The position numbers were made by a program, and so were the translations under genes. A stretch of DNA of 64,000 nt from positions 1 to 64,000 of the forward strand of contig CASFXG010000023.1 in the NCBI GenBank assembly GCA_949298635.1. The letters run 5' to 3'. Position 1 is the first letter of the stretch. Each line of letters opens with the position of its first letter. Origin of the DNA: an uncultured Coriobacteriaceae bacterium. GTDB taxonomy: Bacteria; Actinomycetota; Coriobacteriia; Coriobacteriales; Coriobacteriaceae. Under the pieces are notes generated by a model. The model did no database searches. It saw only the letters and a list, made by a program, of their open reading frames with translations, and was not told where the DNA came from. Below are positions 3,272-60,031 of this stretch, piece after piece.

Positions 3272-3335
3272 AACACTTTGGGGACGGGGTCAAAAGTGTT
3301 GAATTCAACACTTTTGACCCCGTCCCCAAAGTGTT
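3272..3335. repeat. Perfect 64-bp palindrome (TTTGGGGACGGGG family)
   Basis: This is a perfect inverted repeat centred on GAATTC (3301-3306). It fills the galM-galK gap and overlaps the last two bases of the galM stop codon. Each arm is itself a small hairpin: AACACTTT and AAAAGTGTT flank GGGGACGGGGTC. The same arm sequence recurs exactly at 47046-47111, with a related copy at 47127-47194. The architecture resembles paired REP hairpins. It may act as a transcript processing or attenuation site. Confidence 0.85.
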
Positions 3336-15984: not shown

Positions 15985-16836
15985 ATGCTGGTAACGACGA
16001 AGGAAATGCTGCTTGACGCGCAGAAGAATCACTATGCCGTCGGCGCGTTCAACGTTGAGAACCTCGAGTTCGTCATGGCCGTGCTTGCGGCCGCCGAGGA
16101 GACGAAGTCCCCGGTGATCATGCAGACGACGCCCGGCACCATCAAGACCGCCGGCCTGGACTACTTCTACGGCATGGTGAAGGCCGCGGCCGAGCGCGCG
16201 AGCGTGCCGGTGGCTCTCCACCTCGACCACGGCGACGGCTATGACCGCTGCATGCAGGCCCTGCGCACGGGCTACACCTCTGTCATGATCGACGGCTCCC
16301 ACGAGACCTTCGAGGACAACATCGCCCTCACCAAGCTCGTGGCCGACGCTGGCCGCGCCATGGGTGTGCCTGTCGAGGCCGAGCTCGGCAAGGTTGGCGG
16401 CAAGGAGGATGACGGCCCGGCAGTCGAGGGCGAGAACCCCTACACCGACCCCGACGAGGCCAAGGAGTTCGTCGAGCGCACCGGCTGCACGTCCCTCGCC
16501 ATCGGCGTGGGCACCGCGCACGGCGTCTACACCGAGACCCCGCACATCGAGCAGGACGTCGTGAAGGCCATCCGCGCCGCCGTCGACGTACCGCTCGTGC
16601 TCCACGGCACCTCCGGCGTGCCCGACGAGCAGGTCGCCGAGGCCGTGAAGAACGGCATTTGCAAGGTCAACTACGCCACCGAGCTGCGTCAGGCCTACAC
16701 CAAGGGCTACATGGCGTTCATGGCCGAGAATCCGAACGTCTTCGATCCGAAGAAGCCCGCTAAGCAGGGTATGGCCGAGATCACCAAGATCGTGACGATT
16801 CGCATGGAGAATCTCGGATCGGTCGGCCGCGCGTAA
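15985..16836 (+). CDS. Class II fructose/tagatose-bisphosphate aldolase
   Basis: 283-aa zinc-dependent aldolase cleaving a ketohexose 1,6-bisphosphate to dihydroxyacetone phosphate and glyceraldehyde 3-phosphate. Zinc ligands are His82 (ALHLDHGD), His179 (GVGTAHGVY) and His207 (LVLHGTSG). The GatY/KbaY and Fba families cannot be separated by eye; the neighbouring PfkB kinase and AgaS favour tagatose-1,6-bisphosphate. It is the last gene of the amino-sugar cluster and is followed by a large hairpin. It may also serve glycolysis if no other aldolase exists. Confidence 0.9.
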   Translation: MLVTTKEMLLDAQKNHYAVGAFNVENLEFVMAVLAAAEETKSPVIMQTTPGTIKTAGLDYFYGMVKAAAERASVPVALHLDHGDGYDRCMQALRTGYTSVMIDGSHETFEDNIALTKLVADAGRAMGVPVEAELGKVGGKEDDGPAVEGENPYTDPDEAKEFVERTGCTSLAIGVGTAHGVYTETPHIEQDVVKAIRAAVDVPLVLHGTSGVPDEQVAEAVKNGICKVNYATELRQAYTKGYMAFMAENPNVFDPKKPAKQGMAEITKIVTIRMENLGSVGRA

Positions 16837-16860: not shown

Positions 16861-16952
16861 GGGAGCCCCCGGATCCTCCCCTTCGCTTGTCCTCGCTGCG
16901 GAGCTTCGCACCGCAGCTGCGGAATCGCTCAGGGGAGGATTCGGGGGCTCCC
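16861..16952. repeat. Conserved-loop hairpin, copy D (degenerate)
   Basis: 22-bp arms at 16861-16882 and 16931-16952 pair with one mismatch, and an outer GAGGGCGTCAA/TTGACGTCCTC stem extends them. On the minus strand the 48-nt loop has ATTCCGCAG and CGAGGAC, degenerate forms of the loop conserved at 42395, 42724 and 57920. It sits between the convergent ends of the aldolase and cutC genes. The 290-bp gap holds nothing else except the hairpin at 17031. Confidence 0.6.
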
Positions 16953-41890: not shown

Positions 41891-42352
41891 TTACAGATAG
41901 GCAAGCAGCGAGAGGTATTGCTGGGCGCTCTCGGGGACGGCGAGGGTCAGATTCTGCCCGTACGCTTCGACCGTGATGTACGAGGGGTCGGCGTAGGTAG
42001 TGACGGTCGCCGAGGCTCCTCGATAACTCGTGGAGAAGGTTCCGGATACGGAGGCGTCTTCGGGCAGGGTGGTCGCGCTCCAGGATTCGATGGCAAGCTC
42101 ATCGATTGCGGTCTCGACCTGTTCATTCGACAAACCGGTCGCTGCGGCGATGCTCCCTACGTTAGATCTGAGCGCCTCGTCGATGCTGCCCTTCACGCCC
42201 GAGGCATCGAGTGCCGCGTTCGCAATGCCCGTCCCGATGGCATCCTCGAGCGGCGTGCCGTTGAGCGCGAGCGTCCATGCTACCGAAAAGATGCCGAGAA
42301 GCACCGCAATCCCGAACACAATCCCTGCAATAGCCCGCGTAAACGTCCTCAT
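41891..42352 (-). CDS. Small secreted or anchored protein of unknown function
   Basis: 153 aa with an N-terminal signal anchor (AIAGIVFGIAVLLGIFSVAW, about residues 7-26). The remainder alternates short helices (GTGIANAALDASGVKGSIDEAL) and a Ser/Thr-rich beta segment. No lipobox Cys. A conserved-loop hairpin occupies its 5' leader region. No family recognised. Confidence 0.7.
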   Translation of the reverse strand: MRTFTRAIAGIVFGIAVLLGIFSVAWTLALNGTPLEDAIGTGIANAALDASGVKGSIDEALRSNVGSIAAATGLSNEQVETAIDELAIESWSATTLPEDASVSGTFSTSYRGASATVTTYADPSYITVEAYGQNLTLAVPESAQQYLSLLAYL

Positions 42353-42366
42353 CGCAACTCCTTTTG

Positions 42367-42467
42367 GTCTCCGCGCTCCCGGATATATCCTCCGTGCTCA
42401 GACAGTCCTCGCTCGCTCCGCTCGCTGCGGAACTGCGCGCGGAGGATATATCCGGGAGCGCGGAGAC
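42367..42467. repeat. Conserved-loop hairpin, copy A
   Basis: Perfect 28-bp arms at 42367-42394 and 42440-42467 enclose a 45-nt loop (42395-42439). On the minus strand this loop matches the plus-strand loop of copy B (42724-42768) at 44 of 45 positions, although the outer stems differ. It lies 14 nt upstream of the small secreted-protein gene. Confidence 0.85.
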
Positions 42468-42513
42468 GTGCACCGTGTTTGCAGTTCGTTCCGTTTCGGT
42501 TTCAACCTATACC

Positions 42514-42540
42514 AGGTTCTCGCCCCTGCAAGAACGTAGT
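42514..42540. repeat. 27-bp direct repeat, unit 1
   Basis: Identical to 42673-42699. It contains the short inverted repeat GTTCT...AGAAC around CGCCCCTGC. The units are 159 bp apart and enclose a hairpin region, like the ends of a small insertion or duplication. Confidence 0.8.
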
Positions 42541-42672
42541 GCTGGGTTTTGGGCTTTCCTCCCCACTTCGGGCAACCATCTTGCGGAACTCGTGGGAAGG
42601 AAAAGCCCTGGGAGAAACGGCTACCGTATAGGCGCGTTGCCCGTTCCGGTAGGTGACAGGTGCAATCGTTAT

Positions 42673-42699
42673 AGGTTCTCGCCCCTGCAAGAACGTAGT
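42673..42699. repeat. 27-bp direct repeat, unit 2
   Basis: Exact second copy of 42514-42540 in the same orientation, immediately before hairpin B. Confidence 0.8.
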
Positions 42700-42702
42700 A
42701 TA

Positions 42703-42789
42703 GGCTCGGCGGCATATCCTCCGCGCGCAGTTCCGCAGCGAGCGGAGCGAGCGAAGACTGTCTGAGCACGGAGGATATGCTGCCGAGCC
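42703..42789. repeat. Conserved-loop hairpin, copy B
   Basis: 21-bp arms (42703-42723 and 42769-42789) pair with one G-T mismatch. The 45-nt loop begins CGCGCAGTTCCGCAG and ends GACTGTCTGAGCA, shared with copy C at 57920-57973 and with copy A in reverse. It lies 9 nt after the DUF711 gene's stop codon. Confidence 0.85.
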
Positions 42790-42798
42790 CTTTCATAC

Positions 42799-44163
42799 CT
42801 AGTTCTTGAGCGAGTTTAGGGGGGCGGGGAACCGGCCGCCGCGATGTGCGAGCACCGTGCCGGCGTGCGCGTTCACGGGCATGATCGGCGCGCGACCGAA
42901 GAGGCCGCCATACTCCACGGCGTCACCCACGTCTTTGCCGATTGCCGGGATGATGCGCACGGCCGTCGTCTTGTTGTTGATAACGCCGATAGCCATCTCA
43001 TCGGCGATGATTCCGGCGATGGCCTCCACGGGCGTGTCGCCGGGGATGGCGATCATGTCGAGACCCACGGAGCACACACAGGTCATGGCCTCAAGCTTTT
43101 CGAGCGAGAGCGCGCCTGCCTCCACGGCGGCGATCATGCCGGCATCCTCGGAGACGGGGATGAATGCGCCAGAGAGACCGCCCACGCTCGAAGTCGCCAT
43201 GACGCCGCCCTTCTTGACGGCATCGTTCAGCAAGGCGAGGGCGCAGGTCGTGCCCGGACCGCCGCACGTTCCCACGCCGATGATCTCCAGGATGCGCGCA
43301 ACCGAATCGCCCACGGCAGGGGTGGGGGCGAGCGAGAGGTCGACGATGCCCTTCTCCACGCCGAGGCGTCGTGCGGCCTCGCGGCTCATGAGCTCGCCAG
43401 CGCGCGTGATCTTGAACGCCGTCTGCTTGATCTTCTCGGCCACATCCATCATGCTTGCGGACTCGGGCAGTTCTTCGAGCGCCGCGGCCATGACGCCGGG
43501 GCCGGAGACGCCCACGTTGATGACGGCGTCGGCCTCGCCGCTGCCGTGTACGGCGCCCGCCATGAACGGCGAGTCTTCGACCATGTTCGCGAACACCACG
43601 AACTTCGAGGCGCCCACGGAGTCCGCATCCGCGGTGAGCTCGGCGGCGTCGCGCATGACCTGCGCGGCCATGAGCACGGCGTCCATGTTGATGCCCGCGC
43701 GCAGGCTCGCCACGTTGAGGCTCGAGCACACGCGGCTCGTCTGCGCGAGCGCCTCGGGGATGCTCCTGATGAGGCGGGCGTCTGCGCCTCCGATACCCTT
43801 GTGCACGAGCGCGGAAAACCCGCCCAGGTAGTCGATGCCGAGGGTTTCAGCGGCGCGATCGAGCGCATGGGCGAGCGGCGTCAGGTCCTCATCGGGGCAG
43901 GCGGCGGCGATTTGCGCGACGGGCGTCACGGAGACGCGCTTGTTCACGATGGGGATGCCGTATTCGCGCTCGAGGCTCTGGGCGGTTTCTACGAGATGCT
44001 CTGCGGTCGTGGTCACGCGGTCGTAGACCTTCGTGCACATGCGTTCGAGGTTCTCGTCGGCGCATTCCATGAGCGAGATGCCCATGGTGATGGTGCGGAT
44101 ATCGAGATGCTGTTCGAAGACCATGCCTCGGGTCTCGGCGATCTCTGCCGGGGTGATTGCCAT
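42799..44163 (-). CDS. PFL/DUF711 (UPF0210) family protein
   Basis: 454 aa, full length for a family structurally related to pyruvate formate-lyase and anaerobic ribonucleotide reductase but without an assigned reaction. Conserved blocks include [46 protein letters not shown] and [13 protein letters not shown]. The ATG at 44163 has TTGGAG upstream. In many genomes it follows a small ACT-domain (UPF0237) gene; I see no such partner in the 371 bp upstream. Confidence 0.88.
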
Positions 44164-44534
44164 GGAAGCTCCAATCTTGCGACTCCAACCCTTCATTCTA
44201 CCGGATGAGACCTCGGGGTCATGCCCACTTGGCTCACGTTCTGTTTTGCTAACCATCTTCAAACAATCATTGCGACTCGACAGCTTGGCATGTTGCTCGA
44301 ATCCGAGCCTTGAATTCGGGCGCTTCACTGCCCTCGTCAGCGTTTCGGCCTTGCACAGCGCATCGCAAACCTAGGTGTAATCCCGCTCTTGGCAGACGTT
44401 AAGGTTCAATTCGAAATTCACCCTGGTTTCTCGCGCTAGGCAACCCCAAAAGCGAGATTAAACTTGGTTGTATCTCCGTTTTGAAGCGCAATGCTGGGTG
44501 AAATCCGTTTTCTAGATTTCCAGAAGATTGGAAC
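44164..44534. other. Low-GC gap between metH and the DUF711 gene
   Basis: 371 bp with no supportable gene and visibly lower GC than its neighbours. It contains an inverted pair TTCACCC (about 44417) and GGGTGAA (about 44494) that could fold the central part. It follows the metH stop and should hold that gene's terminator and the DUF711 promoter, neither clearly recognisable. It might be a gene remnant or an unrecognised RNA. Confidence 0.4.
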
Positions 44535-47045: not shown

Positions 47046-47111
47046 CAACACTTTGGGGACGGGGTCAAAAGTGCCAAAAACAACACTTTTGACCCCGTCC
47101 CCAAAGTGTTG
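47046..47111. repeat. TTTGGGGACGGGG palindrome, copy 2
   Basis: Perfect 28-bp arms (47046-47073 and 47084-47111) around a 10-nt loop. The arm is the same sequence as in the 64-bp palindrome at 3272-3335, 44 kb away. It lies between metH and the reactivation-domain gene. Confidence 0.85.
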
Positions 47112-47126
47112 CTTTCAGCGGATGGT

Positions 47127-47194
47127 GCGTCACTTTGGGGACGGGTACGTTTGTGACGAAAACGACACGAACGTACCCGTCCTCAAAGTGACGC
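47127..47194. repeat. TTTGGGGACGGG palindrome, copy 3
   Basis: 29-bp arms (47127-47155 and 47166-47194) with two mismatches around a 10-nt loop. It shares CACTTTGGGGACGGGT with copy 2, but the inner arm is different (ACGTTTGTG instead of CAAAAGTG), with matching changes on both arms. It lies 15 nt downstream of copy 2. Confidence 0.8.
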
Positions 47195-55769: not shown

Positions 55770-57860
55770 ATGGCAAGCCTTACCGACCGCTTCGGAACCT
55801 TGGTGTTCTCCGAAAGCGTTATGAAGGACTACCTTCCCAAAGATGTCTATAAGACCCTGCTCGCGACGATCGAGGAGGGCGAGCCCATCAACCTCGACGT
55901 GGCAAATGCCGTCGCGCACGCCATGAAGACGTGGGCACTCGAGCATGGAGCCACGCATTACGCGCATTGGTTCCAGCCGCTTTCCGGCATCACAAGCGAG
56001 AAGCACGACAGCTTCCTCGAGCCCGTGGGCGACGGTACCGCCATCACGAAGTTCACGGGCAAGGCGCTCATTCAGGGTGAGCCGGATGCCTCGAGCTTCC
56101 CCAACGGCGGCCTCCGCGCTACGTTCGAGGCGCGCGGCTACACGGCGTGGGATCCCACAAGCCCTGCCTTCATCAAGGACGAGGTGCTCTGCATTCCCAC
56201 GGCGTTCTGCGGCTACAACGGCGAGGCGCTCGACAAGAAGACGCCGCTTCTGCGCTCGATGAAGGTGCTCGATACCCAGGCGAAGCGTGTGCTTGCGCTC
56301 TTCGGCAAGCATCCGAAGCGCGTGGTGCCGAGCATCGGTCTCGAGCAGGAGTACTTCCTCATCAAGAAGGACGCGTACCGCAAGCGTCGCGACCTCGTGA
56401 TCTGTGGACGTACGCTCTTCGGCGCGCCGCCCTGCAAGGGTCAGGAGCTCGAAGAGCACTACTTCGGCGCCATCCGCCCGAGCGTCTCCAAATACATGAA
56501 GGCGCTCGATGACGAGCTTTGGGCACTTGGCATTCCTGCGAAGACGAAGCACAACGAGGTCGCGCCGTGCCAGCACGAGCTCGCCCCGGTGTACTCCGAG
56601 CTCAATGCGGGCATTGACAACAACATGCTCGTCATGGAGAAGATGAAGCTCGTCGCCACGAACTACGACCTCACCTGCCTTTTGCACGAGAAGCCGTTCG
56701 AGGGCATCAACGGCAGCGGCAAACACAACAACTGGTCGCTCTCCGCAGGCAAGGAAAACTTGCTTGATCCCGGCGACACCCCGCTCGAGAATCTGCAGTT
56801 CCTGGTCTTCCTCACGGCGGTGATTGAAGCGGTCGACAAGTACCAGGGACTTTTGCGCATGTCGGTTGCGAGCTGCGGCAACGATCATCGTTTGGGCGCG
56901 AACGAGGCACCGCCGGCAATCATCTCGATCTTTTTGGGCGATCAGCTCACCGAGGTCGTGCAGAAGATCATGGACGGCAAGGCGAGCGTCCATGCCACGC
57001 ATGGCGTGCTCGATCTGGGCGCGGACGTGCTGCCCAACCTCGAGCAGGACAATACGGATCGCAACCGCACCTCGCCCTTCGCCTTCACGGGCAACAAGTT
57101 CGAGTTCCGTGCCGTGGGCTCCGAGCAGAACGCGAGCGATGCAAACCTCGTGCTCAACACCGCCGTGGCCGAGACGCTCAAGGAATTCGCCGATGCGCTC
57201 GAAGGCATGTCGGGAGATGATTTCGCGACCGCCGCGCTCGAGTACTGCAAGAAGGTGCTGAATGAACATCGCCGCATCCTGTTCTCGGGCGACGGTTATT
57301 CCGAGGCATGGGAGCAGGAGGCCGAGAAGCGCGGCCTTCTGAATCTGCGCACGACCGCCGACGCGCTGCCGCAGATGGTTGCCCCGGAGAGCCTGGCGCT
57401 CTGGCAGGGCATGGGCGTGCTTTCCGAGACCGAGGCCTTCAGCCGCTACGAGGTGAAGCTCGAGAAGTACAACAAGCTCATGAACATCGAGGCCACGACG
57501 ATGGTGCGCGAGGCGCGCCGTACGTACCGCCCGGTGATTACCGCCTATGCTACGAAGGTTGCGAAGGGTTTGGAGGCCATCCGCGCTGCCGGCGCCGAGG
57601 CCGCCATGACCTGCGAGCAGAATACGCTGAACAAGCTGTGCGCGGGCATCACCGAGATCAACGAGGCCATCAAGGCGCTCGATGCGGCGCACATGGCGGC
57701 CGAGGCCATCGCGGACTCGCAGGAACAGGCGAACTGCTACGCGCACGAGGTCGTTCCTGCCATGGATCGTCTGCGCGCCGCCGTGGACGCCATGGAGGAG
57801 ATCGTCGCGGCCGATTATTGGCCGGTGCCCACCTACGACGATATCCTGTTCTACGTGTAG
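55770..57860 (+). CDS. glnN: Type III glutamine synthetase
   Basis: 696 aa, the length of GSIII (about 700) rather than GSI (about 450). It makes glutamine from glutamate, ammonium and ATP. Blocks typical of the family are [10 protein letters not shown] (active-site Glu), [33 protein letters not shown] and the ADP/metal region [20 protein letters not shown] (about residue 430). AAGGGAG precedes the ATG. With gltBD it forms a GS-GOGAT pair. GSIII was first described in Bacteroides and is found in several anaerobic gut lineages. Confidence 0.95.
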
Positions 57861-57902
57861 GTTCGATCGTAGTTTCGACCTTGGCGAATAGCCCGACTGA
57901 AA

Positions 57903-57990
57903 CGCCCCCGCTTCTCCCTGCGCAGTTCCGCAGAATAAGCTCCGAAGGAGCTTATTCGAGGACTGTTTGAGCAAGGGAGAAGCGGGGGCG
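57903..57990. repeat. Conserved-loop hairpin, copy C
   Basis: Perfect 17-bp arms (57903-57919 and 57974-57990) enclose a 54-nt loop. The loop starts GCGCAGTTCCGCAG and ends GACTGTTTGAGCA, as in copies A and B, but its middle is a different 10-bp hairpin (AATAAGCTCC/GGAGCTTATT). It lies between the convergent ends of glnN and the PRD regulator. Confidence 0.85.
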
Positions 57991-58022
57991 CTTCTGTCGG
58001 GCGGGCGTGCGGGTTGGGTGCG

Positions 58023-59963
58023 CTATTCCATCACGCTTGCAAGTGTGTCGATGAACGCCTCGCGGTCGCGGCAGGCGGCGAGGGCGGTCACGTGGGCAGG
58101 CTCGATGAGCACGGAGATGAGCGGGTCGAAGATCTCGTTCAAGATAGCGCGCTCGTGCAGGCTGAAGGAGAGCATGAGCACCAGGCTCACACTCGAGCCG
58201 GCCCAGTCGATGGGGGCGGGCGGCACCAGGACGGCGATGCCGCTTCGCTCGGCATGGGGTTTGAGCGCGTGAGGCACTGCGACGCAGCCGAACGCAGTGG
58301 CCGAGAGGTTCTCGCGCTCCCATATTTCGGTGGCGTAACCGGGTTGGACGAAGCCGTTGCGCTCGAGTGTCTCGGCAAGGATATCGATCGCCTGCTCGCG
58401 CGAGCTCGCTTGCGCGTCGCGCGCTTCGAACAACTCGGTGGTGATGAGCGCTTCGAGCTGCTCGCGGAAGCGAACGCGCCGCTTCTCGAGCTGAATGCGC
58501 GAAACAAGGGCGCGGATGTGCCCGATATCGGAAGGTTTCGGCGCGATGCCTATACGGTACACGGGAACTTCCGGAACATCGTTGAGCGGGGCGGACGCCA
58601 GGATGAGCTCGACATCGGGGGTGCGCGCGATCTCTTGGGGCGAGGTCGCGACATCGCAGATGAGCACGTCGTCGGGGAAATTGCGCTCGACGAAGCGCTG
58701 CAGGTTCTTATCGATGTTGTAGTAGGCGGGGCAGAACAGCACGCATTTCACGCGGGCGGCGAGCTGTCGCTGCGCCTCGAGCGCGCTTCCCAGGTGGAAC
58801 GCGATGTAGGCGATCTCGTCATCGTTGATGGTGAACCCGGTTTCTGCGGCGATGATGCTCGCGCAGTAGACGCCGCTGTCGTAGAGCAGGGGACAGGTAG
58901 CGCGAATCTCCTCCGTAAGGGGGTTTCGCGAGAATGACTTCTGATCCGCGCGGGCGAGCAGGTTCTTGATGTGCAGGGCGAAGCGCGCGTAGAACTCGCG
59001 TTCCGAGAGGTTGATGAAGTAGTAGGACTCGATGCCGCCAATAAGCTTATTCACCAGCGCAAGGCAGCTTTTCCCCACGATCTGCTCGAGTTCCTCGTCC
59101 GATTGCGCATCTCCCACGATATGCGTCGTGCGCGTCGAGAGCAGGAGCGCAAGCTCCTGGCGTTCGCTCGATGCGAAGGGTACGCAGAAGTCTTCGCTGA
59201 GGTTTTCCGCGATCTCATCCGCCATGGCGAGGTCGTGCGCCTGGATGATCGCCGCCGCCGGTTTGTCCGGGCTCTCCACATGCGAGGCCTTGCTGTTGCG
59301 TATGCGGTCGATGGCGATGGCGATGTGCAGCACGATGTTGACGAGCGAGTAGCCGTTCACGAAGAAGCGGTGCTTGTCGAGCGTGTCGATGACGGTCTCG
59401 CGGATGCGGGCGGCGTCGATATCGGGGAACGCATGCTGGATGGTGGCCACATCGAGGAAGGACGCCGAGGCCTCGTCGTAGAGGAGCTCGCCCAGGACGC
59501 GCCGCTTGTTCTTCTCCGTCCCATGGACCGAGAGGTGCCCGTCTGCCTGCACGAGCGTGAGGTCGAACGGGGCGAGATGCCGGCGTGCGCGGGAAAGCAC
59601 GGCGTTCATGGTCGATGTCGAGACGAAGAGCTCTTCCGCGAGGTCTGCCGTGGAGAGGGGGACGGGGCTGCGCAGCACGCGGTTCACCAGGTAGGCGCTT
59701 CGCTCCGCATTCGTTTGCGGAATGCTTGCGTGCGCCGCCTCGAGGCTCTCACGGTCGAGGAGGTTCCGCGCGCCATCGATGCGGTACCAGTAGCCCTTCC
59801 GGCTCGACTCGATGCACGTCATGCCCGCTTGCCGGTTTATGGAGTGAACGTAGGAGCGGACGGTGCGCTCGGAGACCCCCACCGCGGCGGCGAGCTCGAT
59901 CGCCGTGATGGGCTCCGTGCGCTCCAAGATGATGTGGAGAACCTTGCGTTCGTTTTCCTTCAC
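58023..59963 (-). CDS. LicR-type PRD transcriptional activator with PTS-like domains
   Basis: 646 aa. Two N-terminal helix-turn-helix modules (AIELAAAVGVSERTVRSYV; STADLAEELFVSTSTMNAVL), then PRD1 and PRD2 with phosphorylatable His in VLHIAIAIDRI and IAFHLGSALEA. An EIIB-like domain with Cys in KCVLFCPAYYNI follows, then a C-terminal EIIA-like domain with His in AVPHALKPHAERSG. Such proteins are activated by HPr phosphorylation and inhibited by EII components of the cognate PTS. I prefer the GTG at 59963, which has GAGGGA 6 nt upstream, over the GTG at 59981. Divergent from the cellobiose-type PTS it should control. Confidence 0.88.
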   Translation of the reverse strand: MKENERKVLHIILERTEPITAIELAAAVGVSERTVRSYVHSINRQAGMTCIESSRKGYWYRIDGARNLLDRESLEAAHASIPQTNAERSAYLVNRVLRSPVPLSTADLAEELFVSTSTMNAVLSRARRHLAPFDLTLVQADGHLSVHGTEKNKRRVLGELLYDEASASFLDVATIQHAFPDIDAARIRETVIDTLDKHRFFVNGYSLVNIVLHIAIAIDRIRNSKASHVESPDKPAAAIIQAHDLAMADEIAENLSEDFCVPFASSERQELALLLSTRTTHIVGDAQSDEELEQIVGKSCLALVNKLIGGIESYYFINLSEREFYARFALHIKNLLARADQKSFSRNPLTEEIRATCPLLYDSGVYCASIIAAETGFTINDDEIAYIAFHLGSALEAQRQLAARVKCVLFCPAYYNIDKNLQRFVERNFPDDVLICDVATSPQEIARTPDVELILASAPLNDVPEVPVYRIGIAPKPSDIGHIRALVSRIQLEKRRVRFREQLEALITTELFEARDAQASSREQAIDILAETLERNGFVQPGYATEIWERENLSATAFGCVAVPHALKPHAERSGIAVLVPPAPIDWAGSSVSLVLMLSFSLHERAILNEIFDPLISVLIEPAHVTALAACRDREAFIDTLASVME

Positions 59964-60031
59964 CGCGTGTCCCTCGGTCACCTGCCTGCCGCGCGGGCGG
60001 CACTACATTTCCTCTAGGCAATTATGCACCA

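Follow-up and report, generated by a model that had tools for sequence, protein, structure and literature searches.

A 64,000-nt stretch at the start of one contig from an uncultured Coriobacteriaceae bacterium (genome assembly 1.93 Mb, 86% complete), referred to here as the window, carries three hairpins, A, B and C, whose coordinates, arms and common loops were all found as the initial annotation had described them (Table 1). Copy B ends 9 nt past the stop codon of a DUF711 gene, and copy C lies between convergent genes for glutamine synthetase III and a PRD/PTS-EIIA regulator. Copy A, on the strand opposite to B and C, is located 15 nt upstream of the ATG of a small ORF, an exception to the usual position of these hairpins after a stop codon. 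The three loops have GCGCAGTTCCGCAG and GACTGTYTGAGCA in common, and all three copies fold strongly as RNA on either strand (z-scores of -8 to -11). A direct repeat, GGTTCTCGCCCCTGCAAGAACGTAGT, was also observed twice between copies A and B.

Architecture of the F1 element

We refer to this hairpin family as F1. On the core-forward strand its layout is P1 arm - GC(G/R)(C)AGTTCCGCA - P2 - GAGGACTGTYTGAGC(R) - P1 arm, where P1 is the outer stem and P2 a small inner helix that is also variable, most commonly with a 3-base loop of GAA or GCA. The core is near-invariant, although exact search patterns overstate this invariance and core variants exist, and the stems pair within each copy without pairing between copies. 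The small hairpin inside the loop of copy C, noticed at the outset as different from the others, is its P2, which does differ. The stems of A, B and C had been described as having no sequence in common, and this holds for the outer parts; beside the core, however, A and B both carry ATATCCTCCG, and (T)ATCSTCCG is often found next to the core in Coriobacteriaceae copies of F1. In another genome (G002), the counterpart of copy A has a different stem, the orthologue of copy B keeps the core with a different outer stem, and copy C is absent from the corresponding regulator 3' end, where the left neighbouring gene also differs.

Table 1. Positions of hairpins, neighbouring genes and repeats. Coordinates are those of the window unless preceded by a locus name, in which case the locus belongs to the source genome.
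Feature	Position	Strand	Description
F1 copy A	42367-42467	- (core-forward)	P1 of 28 perfect bp; 45-nt loop; GCGCAGTTCCGCAG - P2 - CGAGGACTGTCTGAGCA
F1 copy B	42703-42789	+	P1 of 21 bp with one G.T; one core change, CGAAGACTG for CGAGGACTG
F1 copy C	57903-57990	+	P1 of 17 bp, or 29 bp with two mismatches as 57891-58002; P2 is AATAAGCTCC-GAA-GGAGCTTATT
F2 copy D	16861-16952	-	Loop GAGCGATTCCGCAG-P2-CGAGGACAAGCGAA
F3 copy	L291:11376-11438		
F3 copy	L291:11527-11611		
F3 copy	L295:2817-2909		
Fructose-bisphosphate aldolase gene	15985-16836	+	Next to copy D
Small ORF	41891-42352	-	Next to copy A
DUF711 gene	42799-44328	-	Next to copy B
Glutamine synthetase III gene	55770-57860	+	Left of copy C
PRD/PTS-EIIA regulator gene	58023-59981	-	Right of copy C
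Direct repeat	42506-42540 and 42670-42704		GGTTCTCGCCCCTGCAAGAACGTAGT
Palindromes with TTGGGGACGGGG core	3272-3335, 47046-47111 and 47127-47194		Changing outer words

Abundance and distribution of F1

The absence of further copies from the genome, which the initial annotation had named as a refuting outcome, was not what we found, and many more copies were detected. An exact bipartite core pattern matched six sites in the source genome compared with none for a reversed-pattern control, and a looser pattern matched nine, so that the genome holds at least nine copies. Within the class Coriobacteriia, F1 was present in 31 of 149 genomes (reversed controls gave zero), with 69 and 33 copies in two uncultured members; most congeners had zero exact-pattern copies. 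Among the GTDB contig matches listed, F1 also occurred beyond the class in Lachnospiraceae, Hydrogenedentota, Omnitrophota, Bdellovibrionales, Dormiibacterota and Chloroflexi; these records are mostly MAGs, with labels as given, and single contigs may be mis-binned. However, binning error alone is not an easy explanation for them, given the many copies in several of these MAGs (27 in a Hydrogenedentota MAG, 8 in another MAG and 7 in a Lachnospiraceae MAG). Other genomes had 4 or 1-4 copies, and copies inside one genome have P2 and the core-proximal stem in common.

The two halves of the core belong together. When the 3' half alone was searched in 20 genomes, about 83 of the 94 matches had an exact 5' half at the expected distance, showing that the pairing of the halves is no artefact of the query. 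Those remaining matches that were read proved to be core variants or to have a longer P2, and an autonomous version of F1 with a gene in place of P2 was rejected on the same grounds. Three Eggerthellaceae genomes (at L218, L220 and L223) contain variants with GCGAGTTTCCCCTTCGGGGACTTGCTCCGCTTCGC as the 5' strand and a larger inner structure.

F1 is a real and apparently undescribed element, absent from Rfam and without a paper on it in the searches made. Searches of the window against Rfam 15 returned only a tRNA at gathering score, and lax searches gave only unrelated matches below threshold; skipping-rope RNA (RF02924), a pseudoknotted Rfam family, does not match F1. Literature searches with the core letters gave only unrelated sequences among the matches listed. 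Phages, plasmids and viral contigs yielded no convincing match: five initial viral matches look like chance, and the full core gave zero in the viral search.

Stems pair privately and covary

P1 has a median length of 22-24 bp (115-154 copies), and a P1 stem is not universal, since 39 of 175 copies had no clear P1 under a strict score. The pairing is private to each copy: the median arm pairing score was 16 with the arm's own partner and 3 with the arm of another copy. Among 16 divergent copies picked for a clear P1, 20 of 21 P1 pairs had changes on both sides, 93.8% of P1 cells were paired (52.8% when shuffled and 36-48% when slid), and 139 cells were double-sided compared with 41 in shuffles. 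These results bear out the suggestion of a conserved loop on a stem whose one requirement is pairing, and joint conservation of stems and loops, the opposite outcome, was not observed. In one genome (G206), four copies with the same core and flanking A6/T6 carry near-perfect stems, roughly 35-41 bp long, that are unrelated to one another.

The same contrast was evident at orthologous sites in sister species (thiC, two elements at leuA, ftsH and araC), where arms scored 15-31 with their own partner and 4-12 when cross-paired, and was weaker between species at the site of copy B (19-24 versus 12-13). Closer to the core, the stem is common to copies within a lineage.

Genomic position and the folding strand

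P1 usually starts 3-25 nt past a stop codon and in one orientation. In a gene-strand survey that picked ORFs by codon-position GC in place of greedy ORFs, which are noisy in GC-rich DNA, 77 of 99 copies had their right-hand neighbour gene on the strand opposite to the core, a sense orientation relative to the closest gene end, and only 4 of the 99 lay in divergent (promoter) regions. The end of P1 fell within 30 nt after the stop of an opposite-strand gene in 43 of 60 copies, with coding overlap in 2 of the 60. From reading the sequences, we take the genes with F1 at their 3' end to include ftsH, metG, thiC, leuA, thrC, thyA, map, relA and an araC type, and F1 is kept across species at thiC, leuA, ftsH and araC. 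Inverted pairs occur where both convergent genes carry a copy. Beside the ends of P1 there is no conserved tag, the most frequent flanking 6-mer being found in only 9 of 136 copies. In some copies P2 or P1 is accompanied by A/T tracts, but a T4 run after P1 was found in just 5 of 136 clear-P1 copies (four on one strand, one on the other). U-tracts do occur in a few genomes, among them the Hydrogenedentota MAG, where P1 looks like an intrinsic terminator.

Signals for the strand that folds are in conflict. Position and orientation favour gene-sense RNA as the folded molecule, whereas P2 loops and an excess of G.T mismatches point to the opposite strand. P2 loops were GAA in 54 copies and GCA in 17, with no reverse-complement TTC or TGC among the matches listed, and GNA triloops are very stable in DNA. 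P1 mismatches on the core-forward strand comprised 86 G.T and 32 A.C. This excess was not taken as proof of a single folding strand, because most of it falls within a few stem positions, chiefly those 5-9 bp away from the core, and the sublineages concerned possibly share it by descent; beyond 10 bp the counts are near equal (22 G.T and 20 A.C). Most of ten copies with a terminator-like P2 retain a good P1, which would be surprising for a stem that functions solely in RNA, as termination at P2 would cut P1 off. Folding in silico was strong on both strands.

Filled and empty orthologous sites

In the infA-map region of 45 Collinsella species, elements were present in five, one carried two variants, and the remaining regions that could be read held nothing or other palindromes. 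On the 3' side of thiC in one genus, four species had F1 with different stems, one had no element and one had an unrelated hairpin. Clusters of orthologous sites built with tblastx were not tight enough to serve as groups. The initial annotation had proposed that a mobile element inserts into the loops of pre-existing hairpins, and had looked to empty sites consisting of a stem without the loop as a demonstration. The compared sites argue otherwise, as four empty sites (thiC in G069, and infA-map in G027, G040 and G042) had no palindrome at the position of the element and thus no pre-existing stem; a 9-bp palindrome in G042 is part of the conserved infA leader. Stems therefore come and go together with the core, although the direction of change between filled and empty sites, gain or loss, is not polarised. 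No target-site duplication and no defined or shared ends were seen around F1, in flanks too diverged to place the joints. At infA-map in Collinsella G031 (L264) we noted another kind of nested hairpin; it is flanked by TTACATTT at either side, much like a target duplication, and is absent from a close relative (L270).

How the stems change

Orthologous stems also differ in ways that involve both arms at once. In two species, the leuA element has the same insertion and deletion in both arms (TGGCACCGT---TATCG / CGATA---ACGGTGCCA versus TGG-ACCGTATCTATCG / CGATAGATACGGT-CCA), and at ftsH one block is missing from both arms; these symmetric indels were read by eye in a few site pairs. Template switching makes and mends hairpins (PMC8794818), and the symmetric indels suggest that F1 arms may be rewritten from each other by this process, since matching indels could hardly come from independent compensatory mutation but would need only one event of arm-to-arm copying. 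Such rewriting in place also explains the variety of stems at one same site better than insertion into ready-made hairpins. In their perfect stems and multi-base compensatory changes made in one step, F1 copies resemble RNA hairpins maintained by template switching; those described, however, are stems of RNA genes (PMC8794818), whereas F1 is intergenic and multi-copy with a fixed loop, and its pattern extends across sister species. In one copy (L361, G206) the stem overlaps the 3' end of a tRNA gene by about 7 bp, which gives the impression that this gene end served as the template for the distal arm; copying of gene ends into the distal arm is not general, given coding overlap in only 2 of 60 stems.

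Relation to known elements and search for a partner

F1 is REP-like in the broad sense of a multi-copy extragenic palindrome located mostly 3' of genes. Like REP/BIME sequences it is short and non-coding, often occurs in inverted pairs and has lineage-specific stem variants. REP/BIME palindromes are GTAG- and CGTC-tagged (PMC3733652), whereas in F1 no GTAG/CGTC tag was found, a Y1 transposase is not required, the arms are 20-40 bp long and the signature lies in an internal loop flanked by two helices that vary. Intrinsic terminators likewise form a strong hairpin shortly past the stop codon, and some F1 copies have A/T tracts; in F1, however, the U-tract is mostly missing, the loop is conserved and the stems are far longer. 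Integron attC sites have a variable stem and are recognised via the folded strand and its unpaired bases. F1 shares the variable stem but has no GTTRRRY/RYYYAAC box in the core (AGTTCCGCA, GAGGACTGTYTGAGC), and no cassette or integrase context was seen around it.

The search for a partner gene examined Y1 transposases as the candidate and found none for F1. The Y1 transposase (PF01797) was absent from 16 of 23 element-bearing genomes, including the near-complete G132, G136 and G186 with 6-12 copies of F1, and a Y1 transposase or RAYT was rejected as an obligate partner on account of these core-rich genomes. Of five Y1_Tnp genes in the source genome, the one inspected is flanked by different palindromes with TTGGGGACGGGG. 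These resemble F1 in having a fixed core word, changing outer words and the same intergenic niches, but their core is another one and they adjoin a Y1_Tnp gene, whereas F1 occurs without it.

Competing explanations

A cis-acting, structured hairpin of the mRNA 3' UTR, with a loop that sets the 3' end through a tertiary motif or by binding a conserved RNA-binding protein, would not be mobile, and its copies would arise by ordinary duplication and be kept by selection. The predominantly sense orientation, narrow stop-codon spacing with rare coding overlap, retention at thiC, leuA, ftsH and araC across species, A/T tracts in some copies and double-sided covariation all fit such an element. Difficulties arise from the 27-69 copies in some genomes when most congeners have no exact-pattern copy, from the lack of a U-tract in most copies, and from near-equal G.T and A.C counts away from the core, without the wobble excess typical of RNA; moreover, a good P1 is still present in most copies whose P2 resembles a terminator, and the P2 loops are of the expected kind on the opposite strand. 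We regard this explanation as somewhat unlikely. The strand-specific GNA triloops, the G.T excess on the same strand and the high copy numbers would instead suit an ssDNA recombination or transposition signal (attC-like or IS200/HUH-like) on the core-forward strand. That is improbable considering that Y1_Tnp is missing from near-complete genomes with several copies, that the inspected Y1_Tnp of the source genome carries a different palindrome, and that neither a GTTRRRY attC box in the core nor cargo or ends were found.

Least probable, and in our view very much so, is a small mobile core inserting into the loops of ready-made hairpins such as terminators. P1 is located where terminators are, the source genome also has long hairpins without the F1 core, and P1 in Hydrogenedentota looks like an intrinsic terminator, all of which an insertion would accommodate. 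Yet the four empty orthologous sites lack any stem, core-proximal stem sequence is common by lineage and thus travels with the core, and sister species have the core at the same site with unrelated stems.

A proposed REP-like palindrome addressed by its loop

The account that we put forward, with about equal chances of being right or wrong, is that F1 is a REP-like, non-coding, multi-copy chromosomal palindrome whose signature is the conserved asymmetric internal loop (AGTTCCGCA / GAGGACTGTYTGAGC). In our best reading, the position of this signature in an internal loop, not in the stem or a terminal tag, makes F1 a new kind of REP-like palindrome. The loop, folded in single-stranded nucleic acid, would be the target of a trans-acting factor by which F1 is kept or spread, while the stems would need only to pair and may each be rewritten as a whole through a switch of the replication template from one arm to the other. 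Rewriting from arm to arm would let stems diverge at near-neutral speed without loss of pairing. At its usual place, F1 may influence its host gene through a hairpin at the 3' end of the mRNA that affects the 3' boundary or stability of the transcript, and possibly termination. E. coli REPs act as mRNA 3'-end hairpins, and by this analogy the role of F1 for its host genes may be much the same.

If F1 is indeed a loop-addressed palindrome of this sort, the element is widespread yet unnamed, and classical repeat and RNA searches overlook it because little of its length is conserved. It would also allow the origin and persistence of perfect hairpins to be tested in nature, as sister species have different near-perfect stems around an unchanged loop at the same site. 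The account further predicts that a specific factor reading the loop is distributed across phyla.

Sister families and other palindromes

Copy D, 24 nt past the stop of a fructose-bisphosphate aldolase gene, had been taken for a degenerate relative of A, B and C; it is instead an intact member of a sister family, F2, with its own conserved loop (CGATTCCGCA-P2-GAGGACAAGCGA). F2 and F1 have TTCCGCA-P2-GAGGAC in common and differ in the outer loop letters. Five exact copies of F2 were found in the source genome and none in the 148 other genomes of the class searched, and inexact forms comprised two copies in the source genome and variant relatives in a congener. A third family in the source genome, F3, has a fixed 19-nt loop (TTCGTGAGCGAAGCGAATC) in three unrelated near-perfect arm pairs of 22-37 bp. 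A fixed loop with a private stem is thus a rule that more than one sequence follows. More tentatively, F1, F2 and F3 could belong to a cross-phylum class of loop-addressed palindromes, in which a factor reads the fixed loop and both helices are rewritten near-neutrally by template copying, leaving private near-perfect stems; we see this wider class as possible, with the chances somewhat against it. Separately, palindromes at three positions in the window and at L211 have the fixed TTGGGGACGGGG core with changing outer words.
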